Assembly: GCA_903932805.1 (NCBI GenBank)
Contig: CAIZHO010000131.1
Coordinates: 1-16,235 of the forward strand
Direction: 5' to 3'
Length of the DNA stretch: 16,235 nucleotides
Source: an uncultured Roseiflexaceae bacterium
GTDB taxonomy: Bacteria > Chloroflexota > Chloroflexia > Chloroflexales > Roseiflexaceae
Shown here one piece after another: positions 1 to 16,235 of this stretch. Position 1 is the first letter of the stretch. Each line of letters starts with the position of its first letter. A program made the translations under genes and the position numbers. A model generated the notes under the pieces. The model searched no databases. It had not been told where the DNA came from and saw only the letters and a program-made list of their open reading frames with translations.

Positions 1-106
1 ATGCGGATAGATGTAATGAATCAACACATACCCGAATGCAAAAAACCACGATAGATAGCGATTGTAGACAATCAACTTTTTCAAAGCCACGACACATCCC
101 CTCTCA

Positions 107-124
107 GGGCATCATGCGATGCCC
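107..124. repeat. Perfect short hairpin after the importer operon
   Basis: GGGCATC (107-113), a 4-base loop and GATGCCC (118-124) form a perfect 7-bp inverted repeat, 25 bases beyond the stop of the last minus-strand gene. The 11-mer CATCATGCGAT occurs twice here (110-120 and 124-134). No T tract follows the hairpin on the minus strand, so it is at best a weak terminator or a transcript-end stabilising structure. A second small inverted repeat, GATTGT-AG-ACAATC, lies at 60-73. I see no gene in 1-149. Confidence 0.4.
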
Positions 125-149
125 ATCATGCGATTACACGGTCTGCATG

Positions 150-515
150 TTAGATGAAAGAGGGGAATGCTTTGGGCGGCGGGCTGGCGGGCGGTGCGAT
201 TGCTGATTGCACATGGAGATTGGACAGCCCCACCCGTGCGCCCCGTTGCAACCCCAGCCAGCCGCTGAGCGCTGTGCTCAGCACGAGCAGTGCCAACGCG
301 TGCAAGGTTTCGTGGCTGATACGCGGGGTATGACCATCTGCCGGTGTGTTCTGGAGCATCGTGCAGACATAGTGTGCCGTGCCTGGCTGGGCCATCGGCT
401 GGCAATCAGCAATACACCACAATGGGATACCAATGGCTGTCCAACACCACACGACGAAGAGAGTGCGGAACAACCAGCGGCTGGTCTGTTGGTATTGCTG
501 ACGCATCAGCCCCAT
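150..515 (-). CDS. Small hypothetical membrane protein at the end of the importer operon
   Basis: I do not recognise this 121-residue protein. It starts 3 bases after the stop of the oppF-like gene, which suggests translational coupling. A second ATG lies three codons further in (506), with GGGG just upstream, and could be the true start. The protein has two hydrophobic stretches: residues about 14-36 (WLFRTLFVVWCWTAIGIPLW and after), and about 70-88 (LHALALLVLSTALSGWLGLQ). Between them is a Cys/His-containing polar loop (C34, C38, C51, H65, H68). The C-terminus is Pro/Ala-rich. The hydrophobic pattern looks like a real small membrane protein, whereas the other reading frames here give only Arg/Pro-rich shadow products. 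It may belong to the loose class of small Cys/His membrane proteins in Chloroflexota, but I cannot name a family. Confidence 0.55.
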   Translation of the reverse strand: MGLMRQQYQQTSRWLFRTLFVVWCWTAIGIPLWCIADCQPMAQPGTAHYVCTMLQNTPADGHTPRISHETLHALALLVLSTALSGWLGLQRGARVGLSNLHVQSAIAPPASPPPKAFPSFI

Positions 516-518
516 CGG

Positions 519-1493
519 CTACACCTTGTCCCAGAAGTGGCAGGCGGCCCAACGGCCGGGGGCTTTCTCTTCGAGGGCTGGTTCGTGGGTTTTGCAGATA
601 TCTGATGCCATCCAACAACGCGGGTGGAACCGGCAGCCGCTGGGTGGGTTCGACGGGCTGGGCACATCACCCTCGAGCACGATGCGATCACGTTGTGCGG
701 TCGGGCGCGGTACAGGTACCGCGGCCTTGAGGGCTTTGGTGTAGGGGTGGAACGGTCGTGCAAAGACATCGGCACGGGGTGCGAGTTCGACCATTTTGCC
801 CAAATACATAATCCCAATGCGGGTCGAGACATACTCGACCACCGCCAGATTGTGTGCCACAAACAGGTACGTCAAACCCAGGTCACGCTGCAATTGGATG
901 AGCAGATTGAGCACTTGTGCCTGGATGCTGACATCGAGCGCCGATACCGGCTCGTCGAGGACCAACAGCTCGGGCTCCATGATGAGGGCCCGGGCGATGC
1001 CGATGCGTTGGCGTTGCCCGCCCGAAAACTCATGGGGGAAGCGTTCGAGCAGTGACGGCGACAACCCGACCTTCTCCATGATGGCCTGTAGTTTGACCTG
1101 TTGTTCGTCGCGGCTGCCCACCCCATGGATGACCAACCCCTCCGCGATGCTCTCGGCCACGGTTCGACGGGGATCCAGCGACGCATACGGGTCTTGGAAG
1201 ATGATTTGCATCTTGCGTCGGAACGCTTTTTGTTGGGCGCGGTTGGCCGACAACACCGGCGCTCCGTCGAACAACACCTCGCCGGACGTGGCGGGGATGA
1301 GGCGCAACAACGTGCGACTGACCGTTGTCTTGCCGCACCCGGATTCGCCCACCAAGCCCAGGGTCTCGCCCTTGTTGATGGTGAACGATACGTCGTCGAC
1401 GGCGCGGACCTGCCCCGTCACACGGCGCAATACACCGGTCCGAATGGGGAAGTATTTGACGAGGTTCTTGACCTCGAGCAGTGGTGTGCTCAT
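519..1493 (-). CDS. oppF: Oligopeptide/dipeptide ABC transporter ATP-binding protein, OppF-type
   Basis: This is a 324-residue cytoplasmic ATPase that powers the peptide-type importer encoded by the genes upstream of it. It has Walker A GESGCGKT (49-56), Q-loop Q100, the signature FSGGQRQR (156-163), Walker B LLVLDEP (176-182) followed by the D-loop SALD, and H-loop H214. The C-terminal extension GCRFHPRC...C...C has Cys 287, 293, 300 and 318. This is the four-Cys arrangement of the Opp/Dpp ATPase C-terminal domain, reported to hold an iron-sulfur cluster in some members. The ATG at 1493 was chosen because it overlaps the oppD stop (ATGA) and begins with the family-typical LLEVKNLVKYF; an upstream in-frame extension to 1598 lies inside oppD and looks non-native. 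Opp, Dpp and App specificity cannot be separated from the ATPase alone. Confidence 0.95.
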   Translation of the reverse strand: MSTPLLEVKNLVKYFPIRTGVLRRVTGQVRAVDDVSFTINKGETLGLVGESGCGKTTVSRTLLRLIPATSGEVLFDGAPVLSANRAQQKAFRRKMQIIFQDPYASLDPRRTVAESIAEGLVIHGVGSRDEQQVKLQAIMEKVGLSPSLLERFPHEFSGGQRQRIGIARALIMEPELLVLDEPVSALDVSIQAQVLNLLIQLQRDLGLTYLFVAHNLAVVEYVSTRIGIMYLGKMVELAPRADVFARPFHPYTKALKAAVPVPRPTAQRDRIVLEGDVPSPSNPPSGCRFHPRCWMASDICKTHEPALEEKAPGRWAACHFWDKV

Positions 1494-2476
1494 CGTGCAG
1501 GTGCTCCCTCTGTGGCATACAACCAACACCGAACCTGCCGGCCCTGGTGCTGCACGAGCGGTGGTGCTTTGTCGCAGGCGGCGTGGCGTTTGGCGCACCG
1601 GTCCGCAAAGCGGCAGCCGAGCGGTGGGTCAATCATCATCGGCACCGTCCCTTCAATCGACTGCAGGGTGCGGTTGCTGGCATCGCCCAAAACGGGCATC
1701 GAGTTGAGCAGTGCGAGCGAGTAGGGGTGCAGCGGTTCATCGAAGAGTTCGTGCACGGTGGCGTTTTCGACGATTTGACCGGCGTACATCACGATGACGC
1801 GGTCGGCCATTTCGGCGATGACCCCCAAATCGTGGGTAATCAACATAATCGAGGTGTTGACGGTTTTGCGCAACTCACGCATCAGCTCGAGGATCTGGGC
1901 TTGAATGGTCACGTCCAGTGCCGTGGTCGGCTCGTCGGCGATCAGCAGTTCGGGGTTGCAGGCGAGCGCCATGGCAATCATGATGCGTTGTGCTTGCCCG
2001 CCGGATATCTCGTGCGGGTACGAGTTCATCCGTTGTTCGGCGTCGGGCAGGCGGACCAACTTGAGTAATTCGACGGTACGCACTTTGGCCTGCTCGAGGG
2101 TCATGTTCTGGTGGATCTGGAGCGCCTCGGTAATCTGACTGCCGACGGTATAGACCGGGTTGAGGCACGAGGTCGGCTGTTGGAAGATCATCGAGATGCG
2201 GTTACCGCGGTAGGTACGCATCTGCTCCTCGGACAACGACAGCATGTCGGTGCCCGCAAAGGTAATGCTCCCCTCGACGATTTCGCCCGGGTCGCCAATC
2301 AGCCGCATAATCGACAACGACGTCACGCTTTTGCCACTGCCTGACTCACCCACGATACCCAACGTGGTGCCTGTGGGCACGTCGAAGCTGATATCGTCGA
2401 CGGCTTGGACCACACCGCCTGGGGTAAAGAAATACGTCTTGAGATTTTTGACCGACAAGAGTGGTTGACTGGTCAT
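1490..2476 (-). CDS. oppD: Oligopeptide/dipeptide ABC transporter ATP-binding protein, OppD-type
   Basis: This is a 328-residue ATPase, the partner of the OppF-type subunit; family knowledge says the two form the heterodimeric motor beneath the two permeases. Visible motifs are Walker A GESGSGKS (43-50), Q-loop Q99, the signature ISGGQAQR (157-164), Walker B ELLIADEP (176-183), the D-loop TALD and H-loop H215. The C-terminal oligo_HPY-type extension has Cys 288, 294, 301 and 317, the same four-Cys spacing pattern as the neighbour. Its ATG overlaps the oppC stop (ATGA), with GGAG 9 bases upstream. Its stop overlaps the oppF start in the same way, so the two ATPases are translationally coupled. 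No key residue is missing. Confidence 0.95.
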   Translation of the reverse strand: MTSQPLLSVKNLKTYFFTPGGVVQAVDDISFDVPTGTTLGIVGESGSGKSVTSLSIMRLIGDPGEIVEGSITFAGTDMLSLSEEQMRTYRGNRISMIFQQPTSCLNPVYTVGSQITEALQIHQNMTLEQAKVRTVELLKLVRLPDAEQRMNSYPHEISGGQAQRIMIAMALACNPELLIADEPTTALDVTIQAQILELMRELRKTVNTSIMLITHDLGVIAEMADRVIVMYAGQIVENATVHELFDEPLHPYSLALLNSMPVLGDASNRTLQSIEGTVPMMIDPPLGCRFADRCAKRHAACDKAPPLVQHQGRQVRCWLYATEGAPAR

Positions 2477-3498
2477 GATGCAGCACTCCGATCACGTATC
2501 GCTTTGAGCAGTGCGTCGCGCTTGGCACGGGTGACCTCGGTCTGTACCCGCGGGTCGAGGGCATCGCGGAGGCCGTCACCGATGTAGTTGATGGCCAGCG
2601 AGCAGACCAAAATCGGCAGCGTGGGCACCAGCGGCATCCACGGGTAGTTGAACATGTAGCTGTTGGCGAACGAGAGCATATTGCCCCAGCTCGGCGTGGG
2701 GTCTTGGATCCCGAAGCCGAGGAAGCTGAGCGCTGATTCGGCCACCAGCGCCCCACTCAACCCCAACGTGTAGGCCACGATGATAGGCGGCATGGCGTTG
2801 GGCAAGACGTGGGTGATGATGTTGTGCAGGTGCGATGCGCCCAAGGCGCGTGACGATTCGACGTACAACTGCTCGCGGATCGACAGCACCATGCCACGCA
2901 CAAACCGGGCCACCCCGGTCCATCCCAGCGCGATGAAGATGACCATAATCATCACGACTTGCTTGCCTTCGCGCTCGTTTACGGCCATGATGACGCCGAT
3001 GGTTTGCGAAAGCAACGCGGGGATGGGGATGTCGTCGCTGTTTTGGATGGCAATCGAGCCCGCAATCAGCAACAACGTAAATGTCGGGAAGGTCGAGATG
3101 AATTCGATCATGCGTGAGGTGATCGTATCGACGATGCCACCGAAGTAGCCGGCAGTCAGCCCGACGACGATGCCGATCAGCGTCGATACCGTGGTCACGG
3201 TTATCGCGGTCGTCAACGAGACACGGGCAGCATAAATCAGTCGGGTAAAGAAGTCACGACCCAAGTGATCGGTACCAAAGACGTGATACGAGCCATCGGG
3301 AGCAGTACTGAACGGGGTCGTGTAGGCGTTGTCGAGCGAAATAGCATCGCGTTTGTACGGCGCAATGACGCTGGCAAACATCGACAGGACATAAATCGTG
3401 GTAATCAGATACAGACACCACATCGCGACGCGATGCGTCTTGAAGCGGCGAAAGATGAGTGCCCACTGGCCGGCGGGGCGGTGATTCGGTGTCGTCAT
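2473..3498 (-). CDS. oppC: Oligopeptide/dipeptide ABC transporter permease, OppC-type
   Basis: This 341-residue inner-membrane subunit forms the translocation pore with the OppB-type permease. A cytoplasmic N-terminus (1-25) leads into the first membrane segment (about 26-46). The OppC-typical extracellular stretch with FGTDHLGRDFFTRLIYAARVSL (about 74-95) follows, then the BPD_transp_1 core. The EAA loop that contacts the ATPases reads ESSRALGASHLHNIITHVLP (214-233). The end GLRDALDPR (309-317) is typical of the family. Between membrane segments, residues about 151-182 are longer and more polar (NSDDIPIP, NEREGKQ) than I expect for this family. The gene lies 12 bases after oppB with a weak GAAAAG ribosome site and ends in an ATGA overlap with oppD. 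Confidence 0.95.
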   Translation of the reverse strand: MTTPNHRPAGQWALIFRRFKTHRVAMWCLYLITTIYVLSMFASVIAPYKRDAISLDNAYTTPFSTAPDGSYHVFGTDHLGRDFFTRLIYAARVSLTTAITVTTVSTLIGIVVGLTAGYFGGIVDTITSRMIEFISTFPTFTLLLIAGSIAIQNSDDIPIPALLSQTIGVIMAVNEREGKQVVMIMVIFIALGWTGVARFVRGMVLSIREQLYVESSRALGASHLHNIITHVLPNAMPPIIVAYTLGLSGALVAESALSFLGFGIQDPTPSWGNMLSFANSYMFNYPWMPLVPTLPILVCSLAINYIGDGLRDALDPRVQTEVTRAKRDALLKAIRDRSAAS

Positions 3499-3510
3499 GG
3501 TGCGTCTTTT

Positions 3511-4710
3511 CTACGAAAGCCGAATGCGTGGATCGAGGATGCTGTACAAAATATCGGTGATGAGATACCCCAACAGCAATAAGAAAATGCTGACCATCGT
3601 CAACCCCATCGTCACGCTATAGTCGTTGCGCTCGATCGAATCGACCAGCAAGCGGCCAAGCCCCGGCCAATTGAAGATTGCCTCGGTGATGGCGGCGCCG
3701 CCGAATAGCTCGGCCATGACCCCCGCCAACAGAGTGATGAACGGCAAAATCGCATTGCGCAAGGCATGTTTGAGCACCACGGTGCGCTCACGTAGCCCCT
3801 TGGCGCGGGCGGTGCGCACATAATCTTGACGTAGGACCTCGAGCATGCCCGAACGGATGAAGCGGCTGTAGCCGGCGATGTTGACAAACACCAACACGCC
3901 CAACGGCATGATGAAGTGCAACACGCGGTCGAGTGTCGACGAGGCAATCACCTCACCGATATATGGGATAACGTAGTCTTTGTTGCTGACCGCGTTGCCA
4001 GGGGGCAAATAGATAAACCCAGCTTCTTTGGCGCCTACGGCAAAAACCAAAATACAAATGATTCCAATGACAAAGGTCGGCAGCGACGAACCAACAAACG
4101 ACACGGTGGTCATCGCATAATCGAAGCGCGAATACTGGCGTACGGCCGAGTAGATGCCGAGCGGGACGCCAATTGCAATCGAAATCAATATAGAAGCGCC
4201 CATCAACTGCAATGTATAGGGCAGTCGACTCGCGATAAGGGTCGAAATTGGGCGGTCACGCAACATGACCTGTGAGAGTCCAAAGTCACCAAAAAGAATA
4301 CCGCGGGAGGTACGCCGGTCGACCAGATCTGCAAAGGTAATCGGGACTTCACAGCCTTCTTCGATGATTTCGGTGCGGCCATCAGGATAGCGCAAACGGA
4401 CCATGCCTGGGGTTTTGCAGCCAGCGGCTACATCGGCCAGAAATGTCTGGCCAGCAATGGTGACGGGACCAGCGGGGAACCCAACGAGCCACCGGGTAAA
4501 TCGATAGGGGATGTACAAATCGAGTTCGAAGCGTTGTTTGATGCGGGCGATGTCGTCCGCAGACATTTTGTTGCGGCCGCTTTGCTGCGTCTGCCGCAAG
4601 CCCGTCATCGGGCCACCAGGGGCAAAGTACAACAGCACATACGACACAACTGCCGATGCAATCAATACGAGGAACATTTGAATCAGACGACGGATGAGGA
4701 ATGTCGCCAT
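3511..4710 (-). CDS. oppB: Oligopeptide/dipeptide ABC transporter permease, OppB-type, with an extracellular insertion
   Basis: This 399-residue membrane subunit pairs with the OppC-type permease. The first membrane helix begins at once (MATFLIRRLIQMFLVLIASA). The permease core follows from about residue 155, with EAA loop DYVRTARAKGLRERTVVLKH (296-315) and the family-typical end LDPRIRLS. Between helix 1 and the core, residues about 79-139 form an insertion not expected in a standard OppB. It has a Gly/Val-rich, strand-like character, two Cys (98, 120) and a TEIIEEGCEV stretch, and is predicted to face outward. The start at 4710 was chosen for the typical N-terminus and an AGGGAG site. The in-frame extension to 4833 runs back across the hairpin that follows the binding-protein gene. 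The ribosome site lies in a small palindrome (GGAGCCGCTCC, 4711-4721), which could dampen initiation. Confidence 0.93.
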   Translation of the reverse strand: MATFLIRRLIQMFLVLIASAVVSYVLLYFAPGGPMTGLRQTQQSGRNKMSADDIARIKQRFELDLYIPYRFTRWLVGFPAGPVTIAGQTFLADVAAGCKTPGMVRLRYPDGRTEIIEEGCEVPITFADLVDRRTSRGILFGDFGLSQVMLRDRPISTLIASRLPYTLQLMGASILISIAIGVPLGIYSAVRQYSRFDYAMTTVSFVGSSLPTFVIGIICILVFAVGAKEAGFIYLPPGNAVSNKDYVIPYIGEVIASSTLDRVLHFIMPLGVLVFVNIAGYSRFIRSGMLEVLRQDYVRTARAKGLRERTVVLKHALRNAILPFITLLAGVMAELFGGAAITEAIFNWPGLGRLLVDSIERNDYSVTMGLTMVSIFLLLLGYLITDILYSILDPRIRLS

Positions 4711-4810
4711 GGAGCGGCTCCCTACTTCTACAACAATGTGAATGACATGGAGCGCGTGTACCACCATAAAACGTGCACGAGCACTGAGGCATGTGTCTGG
4801 TTTATGATAT

Positions 4811-4841
4811 ACCCCCCGACACGACGTGCGCATCGGGGGGT
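4811..4841 (-). terminator. Hairpin between binding-protein and permease genes (attenuator-like)
   Basis: A 9-bp perfect stem, ACCCCCCGA (4811-4819) with TCGGGGGGT (4833-4841), encloses a 13-base loop and sits 16 bases after the stop of the binding-protein gene. On the minus strand it is followed by TATATCATAAA, which is AT-rich but lacks a proper T run. It therefore looks like a leaky terminator or a 3'-end stabiliser rather than a full stop. Such an element between a binding-protein gene and its permeases would keep the binding protein in excess over the membrane parts. Confidence 0.65.
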
Positions 4842-4857
4842 GTGCGGACGGGGGTTC

Positions 4858-6792
4858 TTACTTGACGAACATGTTCATGTCGACGTGTTCCCATGTTGGG
4901 GAAGCAATCGTGACGACCTGAACCTTGCCCTTGGCTGCGGCATCGACGACCGATTGGACTTCGGCGCCTGCACCCAGGGTCTCGCTGCCGAGAACGTCGA
5001 TATCGCCGGTCAGCAATTGAGCGACAGCCTGGTTGGTGTCTTCAAAGAACTGAATGGTGATGGTCTTGATCTTGGCTGGCGTTCCGCCGTAGTTCTCGTT
5101 GGCTTCGAAGACCATTTTCTGGCCCTTTTCCCACGCAACGATCTTGTATGGTCCGGTGCTCCATGGCATTTCGGCCACTTCTGGCAACGTTGGCCAGTCC
5201 TTGGCAGGGACGTCGGCGAGGGTCTTGCCCTTGTAGGCGCCTTCGCTCTCGATGGGCTGCTTGGACGGTGCTGGGCCGAACCCACCGGTGTAGAACGTTG
5301 GCCACTGCACGCCTGGCAAGAAGGCCAGGGTCTGCTTGGTGTCGCTCTCTTGGGTGAAGGTCATGACCGAGTCACAGAAGGTGAACGTGGTTGCGCCGGA
5401 CTCTTTGTCACAGCTGGTCTTCTGGCCGAGTTCGAAGTCGGCCTTGGTGACCGGTGAACCGTCTTGCCACTTCATGCCGGGCTTGTATTCGAAGGTGACG
5501 GTGAGCTGCTTCATGGTCAATGGTGCAGCGCCGTCCCAGACGACGGTCTCGCCTGCGGCGTTGGTGACTTCGACGTCCTTGGCCAGTGCAACCGGCTCGC
5601 CGCTGGTGCTCCAGACCATGTCGCCGGCCTTGACTTCGACGTCAGCGTTGGTGGCACCGTCGCCCAGTGATGGCAACTTAGTGAACCCGACTGGCTGATA
5701 GTCATAGTCCAGGGAGGTGACGGACAATTGGCTGATCAACTGCGCAGCGGTGTATGCCACTGAGGCACTTTCGACCAGGGTGTACAACGATGCTGGCTCT
5801 TGGGTGAAGCCGAGGACGAGAGCGTCCTTGCCTGGGAGTTCCCATTCGCCTGCGTTGTGGGTGTAGTACTCGGTTGGGTTTGGCTTGAAGTTCTTCAAGT
5901 TGACGTTGGCAGCAGCTGCCTCGGCGCGGTTGAACAACGGCAAGCTGACCATGTCCTTGGTGAACTCTTGCTGGACGATGGCGTACTGCTTGATGCGCTC
6001 GGCGCGGTCCAGCGTGTTGTTGGCGGCGATGATTGCCTTGGAGGCAGCCTCGTTACACCAACCCATGCCGTTCTGGCCTTCCCAGTTGTTGCTTGGCAAC
6101 GGGATCTGGTTACAAGCGTAGAGCGAGATGCCGCCCGGATCGGCTTGGCCAACCCATGCGAATGCACCCAACTCGTAGTCGCGGCGGGACAAGCCCGTCG
6201 TGTCGCCGAACCACCAGGAGCCTGGTGCGTGCGTGCGGGCAATCGTGATGCCACAGTTGTCGGCCAACTGCTGCTCGAGCACGGTGGCCCAGGTCTGGCG
6301 GAAGCCAGCGTTGGTGGTCGTGAAGCGCAAGAACAGTGGTGCGCCCGTCTCGACGTTGGCACCCTCTTCGTAGCCGGCTTCCTTCAACAGCGCCTTGCCC
6401 TTTTCGGGGTCAAAGGGGTAGGTGGTGATGCCTTCGGTGGTGGCTGCCCAGTGTGACTTGGGCAAGAAGGTGTCCATCAACAGCCCTTGCTGCTGTTCTT
6501 CGGTCAAGAACGGATAGACCGACTTGATCAATTCTGGACGGTTGGTGCAGTAGGCAATCGCCTGACGGATACGTACGTCGCCCAACAGCGGGTGTGGGGT
6601 CGTGAACGATGTGTCGGTGACGACTGGCTCGGCTGGTTCTACGGTGGCGACCGGCACTGCGGTCTCCTTCACCACGACGGTTTCCTTGATGACTTGCACT
6701 TCTGGGGCTTGGCCACAGGCGGCAATCATCGGGATGACCAGTGCCGTGATGAACAGCAATCCTGCGCGACGCAGCAATTGTTGCTTCAACAT
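4858..6792 (-). CDS. Peptide-type ABC transporter substrate-binding lipoprotein (SBP family 5), apparently circularly permuted
   Basis: This is a 644-residue extracytoplasmic lipoprotein that delivers substrate to the downstream permeases. The signal peptide (1-25) ends in lipobox IAAC with the lipid-bearing C26. A Val/Lys/Glu/Thr linker (27-66) of the kind seen on Chloroflexota lipoproteins follows. Residues 67-322 match the normal second half of family 5 proteins: DVRIRQAIAY (72-81), FDPEKGKALLKEAGY (127-141), then a final region with FTKDMVSLPLFNR (277-289). Residues 323-644 match the normal first half: DALVLGFTQEPASLY (323-337), LTVTFEYKPGMKWQDGSPV (430-448), STGPYKIVAWEKGQ (545-558), QAVAQLLTGDIDVLGS (588-603), ending at HVDMNMFVK. 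The order of halves is thus swapped within one intact frame. The ATG at 6792 has an ideal AAAAGGAG site 6 bases upstream. The substrate is unknown; peptides are likely from the transporter type. Confidence 0.93.
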   Translation of the reverse strand: MLKQQLLRRAGLLFITALVIPMIAACGQAPEVQVIKETVVVKETAVPVATVEPAEPVVTDTSFTTPHPLLGDVRIRQAIAYCTNRPELIKSVYPFLTEEQQQGLLMDTFLPKSHWAATTEGITTYPFDPEKGKALLKEAGYEEGANVETGAPLFLRFTTTNAGFRQTWATVLEQQLADNCGITIARTHAPGSWWFGDTTGLSRRDYELGAFAWVGQADPGGISLYACNQIPLPSNNWEGQNGMGWCNEAASKAIIAANNTLDRAERIKQYAIVQQEFTKDMVSLPLFNRAEAAAANVNLKNFKPNPTEYYTHNAGEWELPGKDALVLGFTQEPASLYTLVESASVAYTAAQLISQLSVTSLDYDYQPVGFTKLPSLGDGATNADVEVKAGDMVWSTSGEPVALAKDVEVTNAAGETVVWDGAAPLTMKQLTVTFEYKPGMKWQDGSPVTKADFELGQKTSCDKESGATTFTFCDSVMTFTQESDTKQTLAFLPGVQWPTFYTGGFGPAPSKQPIESEGAYKGKTLADVPAKDWPTLPEVAEMPWSTGPYKIVAWEKGQKMVFEANENYGGTPAKIKTITIQFFEDTNQAVAQLLTGDIDVLGSETLGAGAEVQSVVDAAAKGKVQVVTIASPTWEHVDMNMFVK

Positions 6793-6903
6793 GCGGTTCT
6801 CCTTTTTGCTACTCTCTCATTACGTCCACGCCGCTTGTGCAGAAATCCACGCAACGGGTACGTCGCGTGTCTACCACAACAAGTTTGAGTATTCGTAAGG
6901 TGC

Positions 6904-6932
6904 ATCGTATATGATAATCAGATGAAAGTCAA
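6904..6932 (-). promoter_or_regulatory. Predicted sigma70-type promoter of the importer operon
   Basis: Read on the minus strand there is TTGACT (6932-6927), a 17-base spacer and TACGAT (6909-6904), pointing at the binding-protein gene. The leader would be about 100 bases. The -35 matches the consensus at 5 of 6 positions and the -10 at 4 of 6. Spacing is ideal, but no experimental support is available. Confidence 0.5.
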
Positions 6933-7002
6933 CGTATACGACACTGCAACGCCCAAAAATCATGAAACTGGGCCAAACACGATATGTGTTGGTCACGGTG
7001 CT

Positions 7003-7026
7003 CCCGTAGTCGCTGCGGGCTCTTTT
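7003..7026 (+). terminator. Possible intrinsic terminator in the intergenic region
   Basis: CCCGTAG (7003-7009), loop TCG and CTGCGGG (7013-7019) form a 7-bp stem with one G-T wobble, followed by CTCTTTT. It is oriented for plus-strand transcription, yet no plus-strand gene lies before it. It could end a short RNA or simply be part of a repeat cluster. Confidence 0.35.
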
Positions 7027-7046
7027 GGCGAGTGTGCAACGATGTT

Positions 7047-7071
7047 CCGCATCCGTATGCGGTCGATCGAC
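7047..7071. repeat. Two adjoining palindromes upstream of the reductase promoter
   Basis: CCGCAT-CCGT-ATGCGG (7047-7062) is a perfect 6-bp inverted repeat with a 4-base centre. It shares its last base with a perfect 10-bp palindrome, GTCGATCGAC (7062-7071). The pair ends 37 bases before the -35 of the reductase promoter, a typical place for an operator or activator site. I do not recognise the binding protein. Confidence 0.4.
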
Positions 7072-7108
7072 AATCCCCCCAATTACCCTCCAAATCATGC
7101 CAAAGTGC

Positions 7109-7137
7109 TTGACACTCAAAACACACCGTGATACTAT
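7109..7137 (+). promoter_or_regulatory. Strong predicted sigma70-type promoter of the ribonucleotide reductase gene
   Basis: TTGACA (7109-7114) is a perfect -35. A 17-base spacer leads to TACTAT (7132-7137), which matches the -10 consensus at 5 of 6 positions. Transcription would start near 7144, giving a leader of about 190 bases. The two NrdR-type boxes directly follow the -10, so this promoter is placed for repression. Confidence 0.75.
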
Positions 7138-7141
7138 TCAA

Positions 7142-7157
7142 ACACGATATTTAGTGA
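7142..7157 (+). promoter_or_regulatory. NrdR box 1 (predicted)
   Basis: ACACGATATTTAGTGA fits the known NrdR box pattern acaCwAtATaTwGtgt at 13 of 16 positions, including the conserved C4, the ATAT core and G13. It covers the expected transcription start of the reductase gene. NrdR is the Zn-finger/ATP-cone repressor that controls ribonucleotide reductase genes in many bacteria; its gene is not in this window. Confidence 0.65.
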
Positions 7158-7174
7158 CCCCCCCACCGTCCACA

Positions 7175-7190
7175 CCACTATATGTTGTGT
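7175..7190 (+). promoter_or_regulatory. NrdR box 2 (predicted)
   Basis: CCACTATATGTTGTGT fits the NrdR box pattern at 14 of 16 positions. It begins 33 bases after box 1, close to the roughly three helical turns normally seen between paired NrdR boxes, so the two would lie on the same DNA face. The pairing makes chance occurrence unlikely. Confidence 0.7.
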
Positions 7191-7333
7191 CTGGTTGGCT
7201 GAATTCAGAAGCATTTGGCTTTCTGATGACGTCGCAAAAGTATCCGATGGTATGTAGTACAGGCGTGAAAACGGCTGCGCTGACTGCCTTCGTTTTTTCT
7301 CGTTTTCGCTGCTGACAGGGTAAGGGGTTCGAC

Positions 7334-9619
7334 ATGACACTGGAAGAAAAAATGGAGCAACCAGCATCGACGTCCAACAGCGACGATGCAGTACAAGCCC
7401 CGACCACCATTCTCAAGCGTGATGGGCGCCGGATGGAGTTTGACGCAGACCGGATCGAAAAGGCCATCACCCGGTGCTTCCAGAGTTTTGGTCGTGAGCC
7501 GAGCACGGCGGTCACCGAGCTGACGCGCCGCGTGGTCAACATTGTGGCCGCAAAGGCGTCCCGCGGAGTGCCCAGCGTCGAAGAAGTGCAAGACATCGTC
7601 GAGATGGTGTTGCAGGCCGCCGGCGAGTTCGAAGCCGCCAAGCGCTACATTTTGTACCGTGCCGATCGTGCCAAAGAGCGCGAACGCCGCCCGGTCCCTG
7701 ATGATGTACGCACTGCATTTGCCGCATCAGACGTCTACTTCCCAACCCCGTTGCAGAAGTTCCAGTTCTTCGACAAGTACTCGCGCTTCAACTACGATTT
7801 GGCCCGCCGCGAGACCTGGATCGAGACGGTCGACCGTTCTGTCGACTACCTGCACGAGCTTGCCGGTGACCGCTTGCCCAGCGAGACGTATCAGCGCATC
7901 CGCAAGGCCATCCTCGAGATGCGTGCCATGCCGTCGATGCGGTTGTTGGCCATGGCCGGCCCCGCTGCGCGGCGCAACAACATCGCTATCTACAACTGTT
8001 CGTACCAGCCGGTCGAGAGCATCGACTCGTTTGTCGAAGCGTTGATCATCTCGATGGCAGGGTGTGGCGTGGGCTTCTCGGTCGAGAGCAAATACGTCGA
8101 AAACTTCCCCCGCATCAAACGCCAGACGGGTCATGCCCCGATGCACTTCACCGTCGAAGACTCGGCCGAGGGCTGGGCTGACGCGTTGCGCTTCGGTATG
8201 CAGACCTGGTTCGATGGCGGCGATGTGCGCTTCGACCTGTCGGGTCTGCGTGCTGCTGGCGTCGCCCTCAAGGTCAAGGGTGGTCGTGCGTCTGGCCCCG
8301 AGCCGTTGCGCGTGACCCTCGACTTCATGCGTCGCCGCATTCTGTCCCGCCAGGGCTCGTTCTTGCGGCCCATCGACGCCCACGACATGATGTGTGTGGT
8401 CGGCAATGCGGCAGTGTCGGGCGGTGTCCGCCGTACGGCCATGATTTCGCTGTTCGATCCCGATGATGCCGAGATGCTCTCGTCCAAGAGCGGTGACTTC
8501 GAGCGCGACAACAGCCACCGCTGGAACGCCAACAACTCGGCCGTGTGGCCGGTCGGTGGCCTCACCCAGCAGGCCTTCATCCATCAATTCATGGAAATGG
8601 TCGACTCCGGTCGTGGCGAGCCTGGCATCTTCAACCGCGAAGGCGCCAACACGATGAAGCCTGCCCGTCGCAAAGAGGCCGAATTCGGTACCAACCCCTG
8701 TGGCGAAATCAACTTGCGCCCGTGGCAGTTCTGTAATTTGACCGCCGCCGTGGCACGTGCCGACGACACCTTCGATACCCTGCGCGAGAAAGTCGAAGTT
8801 GCCACCATTATCGGTAGCATTCAGTCGATGGCTACCAACTTCCCCGGTTTGCGTCCACAATGGCGCGCCAACTGCGAAGAAGAGCGCCTCCTTGGTGTCG
8901 ACATCACGGGCCAGATGGACAGCGCTGCCGCCCAGGATCCGCAGTTCAAACGCCAGCTGCGCGAGATTTCGATCGAAGTCAATCGCGCAACCGCCGCCCA
9001 ATTGGGCATCAACCAGTCCGCTTCGATCACTTGTGTCAAGCCGAGCGGCAATTCGTCGCAACTCTTGAACTGCGCCAGCGGTCTGCACCCACGCTGGGCC
9101 CCGTACTACATCCGCAACGTGCGTGTGTCGATCCACTCACCCATCTACAAGGTCCTCCGTGATGCCGGCGTCCCCATGGACCCCGAAAACGGCCAGACCG
9201 TCGATAACGCCACCACCTGGGTCGTCCACTTCCCCATGAAGGCCCCAGACGGCGCCACCACCCGGGCCGATGTCAGCGCGCTTCAGCAGTGTGAGTTCTG
9301 GCTCCAGAACAAACTCTTCTGGACCGAACACAACCCGTCCGTCACCATCACCTACAAGCCCGATGAGGTCTTGGAACTGATGAAGTGGGTCTGGGAGCAT
9401 CGCGAACAGGTCGGCGGCATGTCGTTCTTGCCCAGCTTTGATGCTAACTACGCCCAGATGCCATACGTCGAAATCGAACAGGAAGAATACGAGCGCCTGG
9501 CTGCCGAATTCCCCGAAATCGACTTCTCGAAGGTCTGGCGCTACGAAGAGAACGACCTCACCAACGCCGCCCAAGAGCTCGCCTGCGTCGGTGGCTCGTG
9601 CGAAGTCTCACTCACCTAA
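7334..9619 (+). CDS. nrdJ: Adenosylcobalamin-dependent (class II) ribonucleotide reductase
   Basis: This 761-residue cytoplasmic enzyme reduces ribonucleotides to deoxyribonucleotides using vitamin B12 coenzyme, without oxygen or a second radical subunit. An N-terminal ATP-cone spans about 25-115 (ILKRDGRRMEFDADRIEKAI, then EAAKRYILYRADR). The catalytic barrel has the redox Cys C222 in NCSY, the thiyl-radical loop NPCGEI with C456 and E458, the partner C467 in FCNLT, and a C-terminal shuttle pair C751/C756 (CVGGSC). The layout resembles the monomeric triphosphate reductase type (Lactobacillus RTPR-like), so NTPs are the likely substrates; the diphosphate-type NrdJ is the alternative. ATG 7334 follows AAGGGG with 7 bases spacing; Met 7 is another possible start. 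It is monocistronic, with its own promoter, NrdR boxes and terminator. Confidence 0.95.
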   Translation: MTLEEKMEQPASTSNSDDAVQAPTTILKRDGRRMEFDADRIEKAITRCFQSFGREPSTAVTELTRRVVNIVAAKASRGVPSVEEVQDIVEMVLQAAGEFEAAKRYILYRADRAKERERRPVPDDVRTAFAASDVYFPTPLQKFQFFDKYSRFNYDLARRETWIETVDRSVDYLHELAGDRLPSETYQRIRKAILEMRAMPSMRLLAMAGPAARRNNIAIYNCSYQPVESIDSFVEALIISMAGCGVGFSVESKYVENFPRIKRQTGHAPMHFTVEDSAEGWADALRFGMQTWFDGGDVRFDLSGLRAAGVALKVKGGRASGPEPLRVTLDFMRRRILSRQGSFLRPIDAHDMMCVVGNAAVSGGVRRTAMISLFDPDDAEMLSSKSGDFERDNSHRWNANNSAVWPVGGLTQQAFIHQFMEMVDSGRGEPGIFNREGANTMKPARRKEAEFGTNPCGEINLRPWQFCNLTAAVARADDTFDTLREKVEVATIIGSIQSMATNFPGLRPQWRANCEEERLLGVDITGQMDSAAAQDPQFKRQLREISIEVNRATAAQLGINQSASITCVKPSGNSSQLLNCASGLHPRWAPYYIRNVRVSIHSPIYKVLRDAGVPMDPENGQTVDNATTWVVHFPMKAPDGATTRADVSALQQCEFWLQNKLFWTEHNPSVTITYKPDEVLELMKWVWEHREQVGGMSFLPSFDANYAQMPYVEIEQEEYERLAAEFPEIDFSKVWRYEENDLTNAAQELACVGGSCEVSLT

Positions 9620-9638
9620 TTACCTCCGTCCCCAAACG

Positions 9639-9669
9639 ACCCGGTACGCATACGCGTGCCGGGTTTTTT
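9639..9669 (+). terminator. Intrinsic terminator of nrdJ
   Basis: CCCGGTACGC (9640-9649), loop ATAC and GCGTGCCGGG (9654-9663) make a 10-bp stem with one wobble pair, followed by six T. It begins 20 bases after the stop codon. This is a classical strong terminator. Confidence 0.92.
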
Positions 9670-9710
9670 CATGTGTCTAAAGCGAAAAATCACAGAGTAG
9701 ATAAGAACGC

Positions 9711-9731
9711 TGTGCAGCACAACATGCATGT
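9711..9731. repeat. Adjacent palindromes upstream of the oxidoreductase gene
   Basis: TGTGC-A-GCACA (9711-9721) is directly followed by the perfect palindrome ACATGCATGT (9722-9731). GCATGTG appears at 9726-9732 and again at 9741-9747. The sites lie in the 235-base gap before the oxidoreductase gene, where I see no convincing promoter, so they could be an operator. The evidence is weak. Confidence 0.3.
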
Positions 9732-9904
9732 GCAGCCGCGGCATGTGTTTCGCGATGCTAACGTACATACAGGTGACAGAATCATACGTTGTTGGTTCCA
9801 AATGCTGCCTACTCGAAACCCAGCGGCATTTTCGTTACCTTGTGCACTTTGCGCCGGCGGTACATTCGTGGCAAGATGACGGTGCACAAGAAAGGAGCAA
9901 GTCC

Positions 9905-10882
9905 ATGAGTGTCAAGTTTGGTGTGTTTGTTCCACAGGGCTGGCGGCTGGATCTGGTCGAAATCGACAATCCGCTGGCACAGTACGAAGCGATGACTGCG
10001 GTTGCTCGGCGCGCCGAGGCTGCGGCCTTCGATTCGATTTGGGTCTATGACCACTTCCACACCGTCCCCACCCCCGAGATTGAAACGACCTTCGAATGTT
10101 GGTCCATCACCGCTGGTCTCGCGCGCGATACCAAGACCATCAAAATCGGACAGATGGTCACCTGCAACGGTTACCGCAACCCCGCATTGCTGGCCAAAAT
10201 CGCATCGACGATCGATGTGATGAGTGCTGGCCGATTATTGTGTGGTTTGGGGGCCGGCTGGTACGAGCACGAGTGGCTGGCGTACGGCTACGGCTTCCCC
10301 GAGATTCCCGAGCGTATGCGGGCCTTCCGCGAAGCGGTCGAGATCATCGTCAAAATGTGGACCGAAGAAAAGCCCACCTACACAGGCAAGCATTACACCA
10401 TCAACGGTCCCATCAACGAGCCCAAGGGCATACAGACCCCACACATCCCACTCTGGTTGGGCGGCGGTGGCGAAAAGGTGACCCTGAAGCTGGTAGCCAA
10501 ATATGCGCAGGCATGCAACGTCGGTGGCGGCAATCCCGAGACGGTTGCCCAGAAGCTCGCTATCCTCAAAGAGCACTGTGACACCCTTGGTCGCGACTAC
10601 AACGCCATCACCAAGAGCACCAACATCAACGTCTTTATGCTCGAGAAGGGTGAAGACGCCGAAAAGGCTACCCTCAAGGTGCGCACCGCCTATAACGGTA
10701 CGGTCACGTCACTCGAGGACTACAAAAAGAATGCCGTCGTCGGTACTGCTGATGTGGTCGAAGCCAAGATTGAGACATTGGTTGCAGCAGGTGCCGATTA
10801 CATCATCGGCTACTTGCCACGGGTTGCCTACGAGCAGGATCGGGTCGATCAGTTCGCCGCTGTCGTCAAGAAGTATTCCTAA
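9905..10882 (+). CDS. LLM-class (luciferase-like) F420-dependent oxidoreductase
   Basis: This 325-residue cytoplasmic enzyme belongs to the bacterial luciferase-like superfamily. Members use the deazaflavin F420 or FMN for hydride transfer; the physiological substrate here is unknown. Visible markers are the opening KFGVFVPQGW (4-13), SIWVYDHFHTVP (44-55), IKIGQMVTCNGYRNPALLAKI (79-99), the family motif SAGRLLCGLGAGWYEHEW (107-124) and IPLWLGGGGEKVTLKLVAKY (181-200). It resembles the Rv1855c-like group of probable F420-dependent oxidoreductases, from memory of family motifs. The ATG at 9905 is preceded by AAAGGAG with 7 bases spacing; a longer in-frame extension to 9728 lacks conserved character. 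It is flanked by terminators on both sides, so it is transcribed alone. If F420 is the cofactor, the organism should have cofG/H, fbiC-type genes elsewhere. Confidence 0.92.
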   Translation: MSVKFGVFVPQGWRLDLVEIDNPLAQYEAMTAVARRAEAAAFDSIWVYDHFHTVPTPEIETTFECWSITAGLARDTKTIKIGQMVTCNGYRNPALLAKIASTIDVMSAGRLLCGLGAGWYEHEWLAYGYGFPEIPERMRAFREAVEIIVKMWTEEKPTYTGKHYTINGPINEPKGIQTPHIPLWLGGGGEKVTLKLVAKYAQACNVGGGNPETVAQKLAILKEHCDTLGRDYNAITKSTNINVFMLEKGEDAEKATLKVRTAYNGTVTSLEDYKKNAVVGTADVVEAKIETLVAAGADYIIGYLPRVAYEQDRVDQFAAVVKKYS

Positions 10883-10897
10883 CTCCTGATATGGTCC

Positions 10898-10930
10898 CCC
10901 GCAGTGTTCTGACGAACACTGCGGGTTTTT
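10898..10930 (+). terminator. Intrinsic terminator of the oxidoreductase gene
   Basis: CCCGCAGTGTTC (10898-10909), loop TGAC and GAACACTGCGGG (10914-10925) form a perfect 12-bp stem followed by five T. It starts 15 bases after the stop codon and faces the rpoC terminator. Confidence 0.95.
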
Positions 10931-10945
10931 CGTGCACACACGCAC

Positions 10946-10977
10946 AAAAAACCACCCCATCGTGTGATGGGGTGGTT
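10946..10977 (-). terminator. Intrinsic terminator of the rpoBC operon
   Basis: CCACCCCATC (10952-10961), loop GTGT and GATGGGGTGG (10966-10975) form a perfect 10-bp stem. Read on the minus strand it is followed by TTTTTT (10951-10946). It lies 16 bases after the rpoC stop. With the plus-strand terminator next to it, it separates two converging genes. Confidence 0.93.
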
Positions 10978-10993
10978 GGACCAAGGAAGAGAA

Positions 10994-13900
10994 CTATTCT
11001 GGCGTATCGGTCTTCTTCTTGGCAGGAGCGCGTTTGGGTTTGGTGGGAGCATCAGGAGCACTGTCCTCGGCCTCATCGGCTTCGGCTGAGGCCTTCTTGG
11101 TGGTCTTTTTGGCAGCCGGTACGTCCTCGGTTGGTGCTTCGGCGGTGACCGGTGCATCAGCGACCGGGGCTTCGAATTCGACGTCAGCGCTGGGCTGCGT
11201 GATTTCGGGGAGCGTGGTGAAGTCGAGATCCGGCGCATTCATGTCTTTGCGCAGCTGTTCGAGGAGTGCCATCGCGGCAGCATCTTCGGGGCTGAGTGAC
11301 GGTGTGCGCGTGACCCGTGGCTTGGCTTCCACAGCGACGGCGACTGCCGGTTGCTCTGGTTGTTCTGCTTCGGAGTCGCGATAGTACTCTTCTTCTTCGG
11401 CATCCAGACGTGCGTTCTCGATTTCGATCGCGCGCAGGCGCTCGGTCTCGCGGTCCGCAGCAGCTGCCACGAGGCGACGTGCTTCGGCGCCGGTGCCAGC
11501 AGGGATGAGCTTGCCGATGACGACGTTTTCTTTGAGGCCACGAAGGTAGTCGATTTTGCCGGTGATGGCAGCTTCGGTGAGCACGCGGGTGGTCTCTTGG
11601 AACGATGCAGCGGACAAGAAGCTGTCGGTGGTCAGCGATGCCTTGGTGATACCGAGTAGCAGCGACGAAGCGACTGCGGGCATACCACCCTGGGCCCAGA
11701 CATCGGCGTTGACGCGGGTAAACTCGGCCTGATCGACGGTTTCGCCGGGCAGGTAGTGGGTATCGCCGGTCTCGTCGATGCGCACACGGCGAAGCATCTG
11801 GCGAATGATGACTTCGAGGTGCTTGTCGTTGATATCCACGCCTTGTGAGCGGTATACCTTTTGGGCTTCCTTCACGAGGTAGGATTGGAGTGCGTCGCGC
11901 CCTTGGATCTGGAGCAATTCCTGTGGATGGGCAGCGCCTTCGGTCAAGAGCTGACCGGTGTAGACGCGGGTCCCGTCGTTGAGGCCTTTGCGCAGACGTG
12001 CGGTGGTGGCGACGATGGTGTCGACTTCCTCGTGGTAGCTGTCTACTACGGTGATGACGCTCCCCGATACCATGACCACGCCGTCTTGACGGGCGCGGAT
12101 GGTCTGACCACCCAGGTCAGTACGGTTGCTCCGGGCGATGACCTGGTTCTTGGTCACGCGCTCGCCGTTTTCGACCACTGCGACGTAGTGCTTGGGCATA
12201 ATCTGCTCGTCATAGACGCTGCCGTCGTCGACGATATGCAGGGTATGGCGGCCCTCTTCTTTGTGTTCGGTGAGCAAACCATCTTGTTCGGCGAGGACGG
12301 CGCGGGTTTTGGCCTGCACACGGGCCTCGAAGATTTCGATGATACGGGGCAACCCTTGGGTGATGTCGTCGGCCGATGCCACACCACCAGTGTGGAAGGT
12401 ACGCAAGGTCAGCTGGGTACCAGGCTCACCGATGGATTGGGCGGCGATAATACCGACCGCTTCACCGATTTCGACCAGCTTGCCGGTAGCCAAGTTACGG
12501 CCATAGCACTTACGGCAGATCCCGTATTCGGCTTGGCAGTAGAGTGGTGTACGCACGTTGACAAAAGCAATGTCGTTTTTGACGAACTCACGGGCCAGGT
12601 CTTCGTGGATTTCCTCGCCGGCGGGCACGAGGACCGAACCGTCTGTGCGCAAGATGTCTTCGGCAGCGATACGGCCGACGACACGGGCGGGCAGGACCTT
12701 CATGACTTCGGAGTCATCGGCGCTGTGGAGCAACAAGGATTCTTTGCTGCCACAATCCTCGATGGTGACGATGTTGTCTTGGGCGACGTCGATGAGACGA
12801 CGGGTCAGGTAGCCAGCGTCTGCCGTACGCAACGCGGTGTCGGCCAGACCTTTACGACCACCGTGGGTCGATACGAAGTATTCCAGCACGGTCAGACCTT
12901 CGCGGAAGTTCGACTTAATGGGCAATTCGATGATTTTGCCGGTTGGGTCGGCCATCAAGCCACGCATGCCGGCCATCTGGGTGAGCTGATTGATGTTACC
13001 GCGGGCCTTTGATGTGACCATCATCGACACCGGGTTGAAGCGTTTGGTCTCGGGATCGACCTTGACTTCGTTGAGTTCGCGTACCAGTTTGGTCATCTTC
13101 TTGCCGGCTTCGGTCCAAATGTCGATGACTTCTTTGTAGCGTTCTTCGTCAGTGGTCAAACCACGGCGATAGCGGCGATCTGCAGCAATACGCTCGTTCT
13201 CGGCCTTTTCGAGGGCTTCTGCTTTTTCTTTGGGGACGCCGATGTCTTCCACACCGACGGTCATACCGCCACGCATTGCGTAGTGGAAGCCCAGTGCCTT
13301 GATTTTGTCGGCCTGCTCGGCAGTCCGCTCCGAACCGTAGTAGCGATGCAGCTCTTCGGGTGAGAAGTAGCGCTCGGGGTACATGGCGCGGATGGTGTCG
13401 AGATCAGCTTCGGTCAAGTGATCGGGGTTGGTGTAGTACTTATAGCAGTCTGCAATGATATGCTTGAGGCCATCCTTGACGACTTCGTGGTTGCGGTACT
13501 GCAGAGGCGGCAACAGTTCGCGGTTGAAGATCAAGCGACCAACGGTCGTCTCGAGCAACATGCGCTTGGTGCCATCGCTGCTGTCAGGAAGCAGTCGGAC
13601 ATTAGCGGGCACCTTCGAACCATCGGATCGGATGGCTTTGATGTTGTCGCCCTGGAGCGTCACACCTTCCATGCGGACCCAAACCGGTGCCTGGATGTCG
13701 ACCACACCTTTGTCGAATGCCAACAAGGCTTCGTCGGCGCTCGTAAAGATTTTGCCGGCACCTTTGCCACCATCGTTGACAATCGTCAGATAGAAGCAGC
13801 CCAGCACGATGTCTTGTGACGGTGTGATAATCGGGTCGCCCGTTGCTGGTGAGAGAATGTTGTATTTCGACAACATGCGCAGGCGGGCTTCTTCTTGGGC

Positions 13901-15850
13901 CTTGCGTGACAACGGAACGTGCACAGCCATTTGGTCACCGTCGAAGTCGGCGTTGAATGCCGTACAGACGAGTGGGTGCAATTGGATTGCCGAACCTTCG
14001 ATGAGGTTGGCTTCGAATGCTTGGATCGACAGACGGTGCAATGACGGTGCACGATTCAAGAGCACCAAGTATTCCTTGATGACTTCTTCGAGCACGTCCC
14101 AGACCTCGGGCTTGACCCGTTCGACCAATTTCTTGGCGGCTTTGATATTGCTGACAATTCCGTTGGCGACCAAGCGCTGCATGACAAACGGCTTGAAGAG
14201 CTCGAGTGCCATCTTCTTGGGCAGACCACATTGGTGGAGCTTGAGGTTGGGACCAACCACGATGACCGAACGGCCCGAGTAGTCGACGCGCTTACCGAGC
14301 AAGTTCTGACGGAACCGACCCTGCTTGCCCTTGAGCATGTCGCTCAAAGACTTGAGGCGGTGCTTGCCCTTGCCGCTGACGGCACGACCACGGCGACCAT
14401 TGTCGATGAGCGCATCGACGGCCTCTTGGAGCATACGCTTTTCGTTGCGCACGATGATGTCTGGGGCGTTGAGCTCCATCAGGCGCTTGAGACGATTGTT
14501 GCGGTTAATGACGCGGCGGTAGAGGTCGTTGAGGTCCGACGTCGCGAAGCGACCGCCGTCGAGTTGGACCATCGGGCGCAGATCGGGTGGGATGACCGGC
14601 AAAATGGTCATAATCATCCACTCGGGTTTGTTGCCGCTCTTGCGGAAGGCTTCGACGACGCGCAAGCGCTTCGTCAACTTCTTGCGCTTGGGGCTGTTGT
14701 GTGTCGCGTTGATGTCGTTCTGGAGGACTTCGGCGAGTTCGTCGAGGTGCACCGTGCGCGAAATGAGGTCGCGAATAGCGCCTGCGCCCATCTCGGCCTT
14801 GAAGACACCGGGTGCGGTCTCTTTCAGGTCGCGATAGTCGGTCTCGCTGAGGATCCGCTTTGGCTTGATTGAATCAACCAAGTCGATTTTCTGCTTCATT
14901 TCTTTGAGCAGGCCATCGATGGCGCGGTCTTTTTGCTCGCCAATGCGGTTCTGCTGCTCACGGGCAACCTGCTCGCGCTGTTCGCGTGAGGCGTCGCGGA
15001 TGAGTTCGGCGTCGGCACGCAGCTTTTCGGCGTCGTCCATGCTCTTCTTGAGTGCCACGGTCTCGCGCTCGTACAGCTCATCGAGTTGGTCGAGGCTGTC
15101 TTCGGTGATTTTGCGGCCTTCTTCGATGAGGACTTGGCCGTGGAAGAGGACTTCTTCTTCGACCGTTTCGTCTTCGCGGTTGCTCAGTTCTTCCTTGAGG
15201 GTCTCGTATTCGAGCTTGAGGGCGCGGAACTGGGCATCGATGTCGGCTTGCTTGCGGGCTGGTTCAACAGCGGTCACCGGCGTTTCGGATTCGGGGTCGC
15301 GCTGTTGCAAATTGGACGACAACGCTGTGGCAATTTGGCCACGCTTGCTGTCGGCATCGACTTCGAGGGCTTTGATGCGGTCGTTGTAGCGGGCTTCGAT
15401 TTCGGCACGCATATCGCCGCGGGCTTCTTCGTCGATGTGGGTGACGATATAGGCTGCGAAGTAGAGCACGCGCTCGAGGTTGCGGGGTGTGATGTCCAGC
15501 AACAGGCTCAAGCGGCTCGGCGAGCCTTTGACGAACCAGATATGGCTGACCGGTGTGGCCAGCTGAATGTGTGCCATGCGTTCACGGCGGACCTTCGAAC
15601 GGGTGACTTCGACGCCACACTTATCGCAGACGACGCCCTTGAAGCGCACGCGCTTGTATTTGCCGCAATAACACTCCCAGTCACGGGTCGGGCCGAAGAT
15701 CTTTTCGCAGAACAGACCATCGCGCTCCGGTTTGAGGGTGCGGTAATTGATGGTCTCGGGCTTGGTGACCTCACCTTTTGACCATCCCTTGATCGCTTCC
15801 GGCGACGCCAGACTGATACGAATAGAGCTGAAATCGTTGATCTCGAGCAT
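10994..15850 (-). CDS. rpoC: DNA-directed RNA polymerase subunit beta'
   Basis: This is a complete 1618-residue beta' subunit, the catalytic clamp subunit of RNA polymerase, about 200 residues longer than the E. coli protein. The first Zn site is C60, C62, C75, C78. The catalytic Mg loop is NADFDGDQM with D635, D637, D639. The bridge helix region is [23 protein letters not shown] (997-1019). The second Zn site is C1033, C1105, C1112, C1115. The trigger loop is [18 protein letters not shown] (1141-1158), with no large insertion. Two extra parts stand out: a highly charged, coiled-coil-like insertion at about 141-325, and a low-complexity C-terminal tail at about 1463-1618 (acidic/Ala/Pro-rich, then Lys-rich, ending [14 protein letters not shown]). 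The start has AGGGAG 8 bases upstream and follows rpoB by 31 bases. Insertions at the first position are known to be lineage-specific in beta'. Confidence 0.98.
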
Positions 15851-15881
15851 ACTGTCTACTCCCTGAAGGGGTTACCCCCTC

Positions 15882-15884
<3 letters not shown>
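15851..15884 (-). promoter_or_regulatory. rpoB-rpoC junction with two ribosome-site candidates
   Basis: Read on the minus strand, AGGAGGGGG overlaps the rpoB stop codon, then GGGG-TAA-CCCC forms a small hairpin, then AGGGAG lies 8 bases before the rpoC ATG. The proximal AGGGAG is the likely working site. The distal one is more perfect but too far away and could be masked by the hairpin. Confidence 0.4.

Positions 15885-16235
<351 letters not shown>

Follow-up and report, generated by a model that had tools for sequence, protein, structure and literature searches.

Binding proteins of ATP-binding cassette (ABC) importers have been described in circularly permuted form in classes other than family 5. 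One natural case is MglB-2 of Treponema pallidum (Tp0684, 'cluster Bc'), a circularly permuted cluster B protein; in the sections consulted of its report the authors described a putative permease of similar distribution and put forward tethering to the membrane as a reason (PMC4990184). Glycine-betaine binding proteins (entries of the ProX and OpuAC type) were treated as a circular-permutation family in the excerpts used of PMC2395249, and the string 'permut' is absent from the portion available of an OpuAC paper (PMC2861598). On the permease side, helices of the periplasmic loop between transmembrane segments 1 and 2 (TM1-TM2) of E. coli DppB enter the cleft of the binding protein as a scoop motif, according to the parts covered of PMC12136057. 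Here, a stretch of 16,235 nucleotides from an uncultured Roseiflexaceae bacterium (GenBank assembly GCA_903932805.1, contig CAIZHO010000131.1, positions 1 to 16,235; hereafter the window) was analysed computationally. It encodes the substrate-binding lipoprotein of a complete DppABCDF-type importer, the chain of which very probably represents the family 5 / cluster C fold in a naturally occurring circular permutation. Such a permutation is apparently new in this class: as had been supposed in the original prediction, made earlier from the letters of the window, no report of one in family 5 was found in the literature searched, in so far as its partly available texts extend and with subscription papers and preprints outside its scope.

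The gene and the segments of its product were assigned as follows:

4858..6792, minus strand: permuted family 5 substrate-binding lipoprotein, 644 amino acids (aa), in a single open frame

6797..6803, minus strand: likely ribosome-binding site AGGAGAA, 5' of the ATG at 6792, read from the sequence

6718..6792, minus strand: signal peptide, residues 1-25, read from the sequence, with LAAC conserved among relatives

6715..6717, minus strand: lipobox cysteine C26, nearly invariant in an alignment of 38 sequences including the query

6604..6714, minus strand: spacer from lipid anchor to fold, residues 27-63, mostly predicted disordered (predicted local distance difference test score, pLDDT, <50 for residues 21-60)

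5842..6603, minus strand: old C-terminal half, residues 64-317 (residues 60-306 matching 4ofl 243-479; profile about 353-602)

5827..5841, minus strand: linker from old C-terminus to old N-terminus, residues 318-322 (ELPGK), from alignment with canonical relatives

4873..5826, minus strand: old N-terminal half, residues 323-640 (matching 1xoc 18-266 and 1dpp 1-263)

4861..4872, minus strand: new C-terminal tail beyond the WEHVDMN hinge strand, residues 641-644, from alignment

The landmarks from which the swapped order had originally been read were all found at their exact positions, namely DVRIRQAIAY (72-81), KGKALLKEAGY (131-141), LPLFNR (284-289), LVLGFTQEPASLY (325-337), MKWQDGSPV (440-448), STGPYKI (545-551), GDIDVL (596-601) and WEHVDMNMFVK (634-644). 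The predicted lipobox after the signal peptide was likewise present (MIAAC26), as expected of a bacterial lipoprotein at the sequence level. The predicted mature length of about 580 residues holds for the folded part and not for the lipoprotein, which counted from C26 has 619 aa.

Sequence comparison confirmed that the protein reads as a family 5 / cluster C binding protein in which the two halves have changed places. Homology to SBP_bac_5 (PF00496), its sole Pfam match up to E 1 (4e-46), stands at 158.2 bits in native order against a cut-off of 32.4. This native match falls into two stretches in reversed order, the best of them 429-640 on profile 16-207 of 368, and joining residues 325-640 to 66-321 gave one stretch over profile 16-353 of 368 at 169.3 bits. 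The NCBIfam model Opp4A was matched natively in two stretches (best, 70-317 on profile 314-554) and after rearrangement in one (91-554 of 556), and in the solved protein 2d5w of the Protein Data Bank chain residues 82-311 correspond to query 431-642 and 322-566 to query 70-305. For a circular-shift scan, residues 64-644 were rotated in steps of 4 and scored against a profile of 29 canonical relatives free of permuted proteins; the optimum was a start at residue 320, with a single stretch of 280.6 bits over profile 63-602 of 604, compared with 178 bits for the native start at 64. Pfam, Opp4A and the scan agree on what had been set beforehand as the test, a continuous full-length match in the rearranged order only, and the canonical topology of SBP_bac_5 / cluster C, a co-linear match from N to C terminus, was not seen in native order; the results named beforehand as refuting the prediction did not arise. 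In the reciprocal comparison the rearranged query aligned unbroken to canonical genes (1-570 in G070), and against permuted genes its match was split in two. The rearranged chain formed a single stretch in 84 of 94 distinct permuted relatives and outscored the best native stretch in 87. Profile 63-602 is covered once by the permuted chain, and therefore a fusion of two full proteins and a truncation were both rejected, in line with the original prediction.

Both seams were located by alignment. The canonical C-terminal ...TWNIAEW, with the end pattern ...NxxEW, aligns to ...THNAGEW of the window protein, which is followed by ELPGK and then by DALVLGFTQEPASLY, the canonical mature start. The canonical run ...WEHIDFNL...LQDIRVRRALAY is opened between WEHVDMN, now at the C-terminus, and PHPLLGDVRIRQAIAY, now after the spacer. 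The old termini are joined by a short linker as predicted, and its extent, given before as 305-323, is corrected to about 318-322 (about 5 residues), because residues 305-317 align to the canonical C-terminal tail. Across the 94 distinct relatives the matched stretches are separated by a median of 4 residues (range 0-121), and the linker of the window protein leaves no space for a remnant signal peptide. A canonical counterpart in the same genome (L004), the shift scan and the seams together identify the arrangement as a natural circular permutation. The predicted model, compared by sequential aligners, matched solved family 5 structures half by half, each separately, and a sequential structure search with it reached a query template-modelling score of up to about 0.30.

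For distribution, order was determined in 241 proteins (the query, the best 120 of 1264 matches and the best 120 of 1298 matches), and 240 of them, the query included, were permuted, the remaining one being a 515-aa fragment. They include proteins named Chloroflexus aurantiacus and genes of one-contig genomes, and invariant residues occur along both halves. Among 301 evenly drawn Chloroflexota genomes, the identical 29 carried the permuted protein whether searched with a single query at 1e-60 or with a 31-row profile at 1e-90: the window genome, 20 others of its order (families f1 and f2) and eight from families f13, f29 and f45. The protein was found in none of the seven genomes of family f3 and not in the single f4 genome, all of the window's order. 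In a scan of one genome per GTDB species, a permuted open reading frame was present at all of the best 80 of 199 loci, which by their titles include Chloroflexaceae, Oscillochloris, Roseiflexus, Anaerolineales, Caldilineaceae, Thermoflexales and Bellilinea. These 80 are, going by titles and taxonomy, presumably all Chloroflexota save one metagenome-assembled genome titled Singulisphaera, whose locus (L107) is 82 percent identical to the window protein. The suggested lineage-wide Chloroflexota subfamily is borne out by these counts and by three families beyond the window's order; sampling was centred on Chloroflexota, and permuted forms may occur outside it.

Some loci depart from this pattern. 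The permuted gene is broken into two frames in two of the 29 genomes, G238 (L033) and G262 (L035), either by sequencing error or by decay; the break in L035 falls at the linker of the old termini. A second permuted protein in G206, of the window's order (L070, 4035-6500, minus strand), continues beyond its WEHIDMN strand for about 155 further residues, a C-terminal extension in which Pfam found no family. In G166, a 415-aa frame (L068, 4431-5675, minus strand) lacks the old N-terminal half: its old C-terminal half leads into a WEHIDFN strand and then into a C-terminal region similar by eye to the one in L070. This frame is either a decayed copy or a new architecture.

For phylogenies, permuted rows were rearranged; an outgroup from other phyla was absent and the root was not inferred. 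Permuted proteins formed one clade against canonical relatives with FastTree (66 rows, support 100) and with IQ-TREE (48 rows, 100/100, all 200 bootstrap trees), and a single clade with support 100 was recovered for each half in a separate tree. These trees fit a single origin. The canonical order is taken as ancestral because solved proteins from other phyla have it. In its own genome the permuted gene is accompanied by four family 5 genes of canonical order, the nearest relative found there (L004) being 32 percent identical over the C-half and 21 percent over the N-half. In the f3 genomes G034 and G110 the slot upstream of dppBCDF is occupied by a canonical protein, which over the C-half shares about 35 percent identity with the permuted form. 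Most likely the permutation would have arisen in place, once, in a Chloroflexota ancestor, by gene duplication, fusion and trimming; no tandem-fused intermediate was seen among the best 120 of 1264 and best 120 of 1298 matches.

The binding-protein gene heads an operon of DppABCDF-type composition, followed on the same strand by dppB, dppC, dppD and dppF:

4811..4841, minus strand: RNA hairpin in the interval separating the binding-protein gene from dppB (-24.6 kcal/mol, z -3.13)

3511..4710, minus strand: DppB permease, 399 aa, conserved start ATG 4710, the frame being also open from ATG 4833

4318..4479, minus strand: conserved insert of DppB (residues 78-131), placed behind the scoop-equivalent segment of the periplasmic TM1-TM2 loop

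4336..4428, minus strand: long beta-hairpin predicted within the insert by an AlphaFold2 model (strands 95-107, 113-125)

4417..4419, minus strand: invariant Cys98 of DppB, in hairpin strand 1

4351..4353, minus strand: invariant Cys120 of DppB, in hairpin strand 2

2473..3498, minus strand: DppC permease

1490..2476, minus strand: DppD ATPase with oligo_HPY C-terminal region

519..1598, minus strand: DppF ATPase with oligo_HPY C-terminal region

An equally low energy for the RNA hairpin was reached by one of 200 shuffles, and an element of this kind could hold the binding protein in excess over the permease. Ribonucleotide reductase with an ATP-cone (7334-9619) and a luciferase-like monooxygenase (9728-10882) are encoded nearby on the plus strand, and a long open reading frame at 10994-15850 on the minus strand is, from its translation, presumably rpoC. 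In G080 and G005 one dppBCDF set lies between two binding proteins, permuted on its upstream side and canonical on its downstream side (L067, 5100-14314; L072, 5893-14412), so that two topologies may share one importer there.

The TM1-TM2 loop is about 40-60 residues longer than in DppBs linked to canonical proteins, and at least two cysteines are kept in the insert in 82 of 82 cases. This feature of DppB did not figure in the original prediction. The insert was found in 30 of the 301 Chloroflexota genomes, 29 of which have the permuted protein; in the thirtieth (G295) the contig ends before the binding-protein position. No large insert of the binding protein that might pair with that of DppB was found in the alignment, in which permuted-specific stretches have only 1-6 residues, and a hairpin around residues 378-436 of the permuted protein is also present in canonical L066.

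These features suggest the following mechanism. After export and lipidation at C26, the protein would be tethered to the cell membrane by the spacer of about 37 residues, which would enter the fold at the hinge, where the canonical chain passes from lobe I into the second lobe. The second lobe would be made first, with a return to lobe I through the canonical last crossover (the SLPLFNR strand); the 5-residue linker would then pass the old termini and lead into the old N-terminal half, which would finish at the WEHVDMN hinge strand. By this route the lobes would be joined covalently by one crossover and not two, with clam-shell (Venus flytrap) binding kept. The importer would be loaded as by DppA, the protein docking on DppB/DppC and the DppB scoop entering the cleft, and most likely the hairpin behind the scoop would contact the re-routed binding protein and help to hold or orient it. 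It is tentatively proposed that a disulfide-stapled beta-hairpin arm of DppB has co-adapted with the permuted protein into a docking module, which would give Chloroflexota a mechanically distinct subtype of peptide importer. Within that module, and with the same reserve, moving the tether to the hinge and opening one crossover may have altered opening or holding, and the arm may have evolved as a clamp. The captured nutrients are probably peptides.

Several points weigh against this account of fold, partner and ligand. It is a computational account, drawn from alignments and a predicted model, in which packing of the halves as in DppA has a predicted template-modelling score (pTM) of 0.78 as its sole measure and residues 196-216 and 236-241 are poorly predicted. 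Among the 94 relatives, 10 did not give a single stretch on rearrangement and seven scored no better than their best native stretch; the Pfam gain is small (158.2 to 169.3 bits), because the whole-protein score already sums both native stretches. Three distinct permuted loci (L036, L140, L142) have no dppB downstream, and these paralogues could feed a shared importer. The fragmented window genome (635 contigs) and the broken frames in G238 and G262 might be taken to suggest an assembly error or a pseudogene; this has next to no probability and was rejected on the relatives, given the permuted order in 240 of 241 proteins, among them those of one-contig genomes, and the invariant residues of both halves. 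A chimaera, in which half-genes of different canonical paralogues were fused in swapped order, is improbable. The commonest best canonical BLAST partners do differ (L091 and L066 for the N-half, L039 for the C-half), and identity to the own-genome relative is unequal between the halves, but both halves are on long branches, which makes best matches weak evidence. The half-trees lend no support to a chimaera: each half forms one permuted clade, the N-half joining the canonical L194/L081 group (support 97) and the C-half sharing an unresolved fork with the same group and with that of L004.

An explanation with nearly even chances is that the DppB hairpin is unrelated to the permutation, both features marking one old co-inherited operon in which the permuted protein works like a canonical one. 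The permuted proteins are a single clade tightly linked to dppB, so that co-occurrence is expected without coupling, and an insert association within one clade and one operon does not by itself establish coupling. As the two topologies flank one dppBCDF set in G080 and G005, an insert-bearing DppB may also serve a canonical protein, and four f3/f4 DppBs that go with canonical proteins show a lesser extension of the loop (64 residues, compared with 46-52 for the remaining eight). Against this explanation stand the retained cysteines and the position of the insert, which lies in the very loop that in E. coli touches the binding protein through its scoop (PMC12136057, in the parts covered). The insert was also not found in 271 of the 272 genomes without a permuted protein, G295, whose contig is cut, being the one exception, and it was not matched in other DppB paralogues of four insert-bearing genomes; these paralogues count as insert-free on the ground that their match begins no earlier than residue 135 and that their frames are shorter (319-382 aa), and their loops were not aligned singly. 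As to the ligand, the DppA aspartate that fixes the peptide N-terminus aligns, by its presumed numbering, to Q216, and a dipeptide is therefore not implied. A ligand other than peptides (e.g. opines, sugars or metal complexes) or a sensor role, with an importer Dpp-like in sequence only, is rather unlikely, although solved family 5 relatives are named for many ligands. Reading the ligand from DppA residues was dropped, the alignment beyond Q216 being unsure.

Binding proteins of family 5 make up a large import family that serves as a model of flytrap binding and of docking. A permutant fixed in a clade of Chloroflexia-type and Anaerolineae-type genomes (by titles), beside canonical paralogues in its own genome, offers a natural comparison of folding order, hinge mechanics and tether position. 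The insert near the scoop supplies a defined hypothesis on co-adaptation of binding protein and permease, and the rearranged protein offers a natural test of docking and cargo release. In practice, permuted proteins go by the names of ordinary substrate-binding proteins in the sources, and a sequential structure search gives the model low scores.

Compared with known systems, the window protein is like E. coli DppA (1dpp), B. subtilis AppA (1xoc) and T. thermophilus 2d5w in that both halves are homologous to theirs and match in fold and in that it heads a dppBCDF operon; it differs in that its halves are swapped, its new termini lie at the hinge and about 5 residues join the old termini. Its DppB has, like E. 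coli DppB as covered in PMC12136057, a TM1-TM2 loop of the same location with a scoop-equivalent segment, whereas the loop is about 40-60 residues longer and the extra part is a predicted hairpin with two invariant cysteines. The glycine-betaine proteins are similarly a case of circularly permuted relatives among periplasmic binding proteins, but of a different class and drawn from structure comparison at <24 percent identity, and a partner-permease feature goes unmentioned for them in the excerpts used of PMC2395249. Closest in kind, in the sections consulted of PMC4990184, is MglB-2, also a naturally permuted, bilobed, lipid-tethered binding protein of an ABC importer, with permease homologues similarly distributed. 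MglB-2 is a glucose binder of type I / cluster B that adds a fourth inter-lobe crossover and has a poorly conserved moved part, whereas in the window protein one crossover would be opened and homology is clear in both halves. As an SBP_bac_5 protein it falls in another class than 'cluster Bc', and the event is of the same kind.
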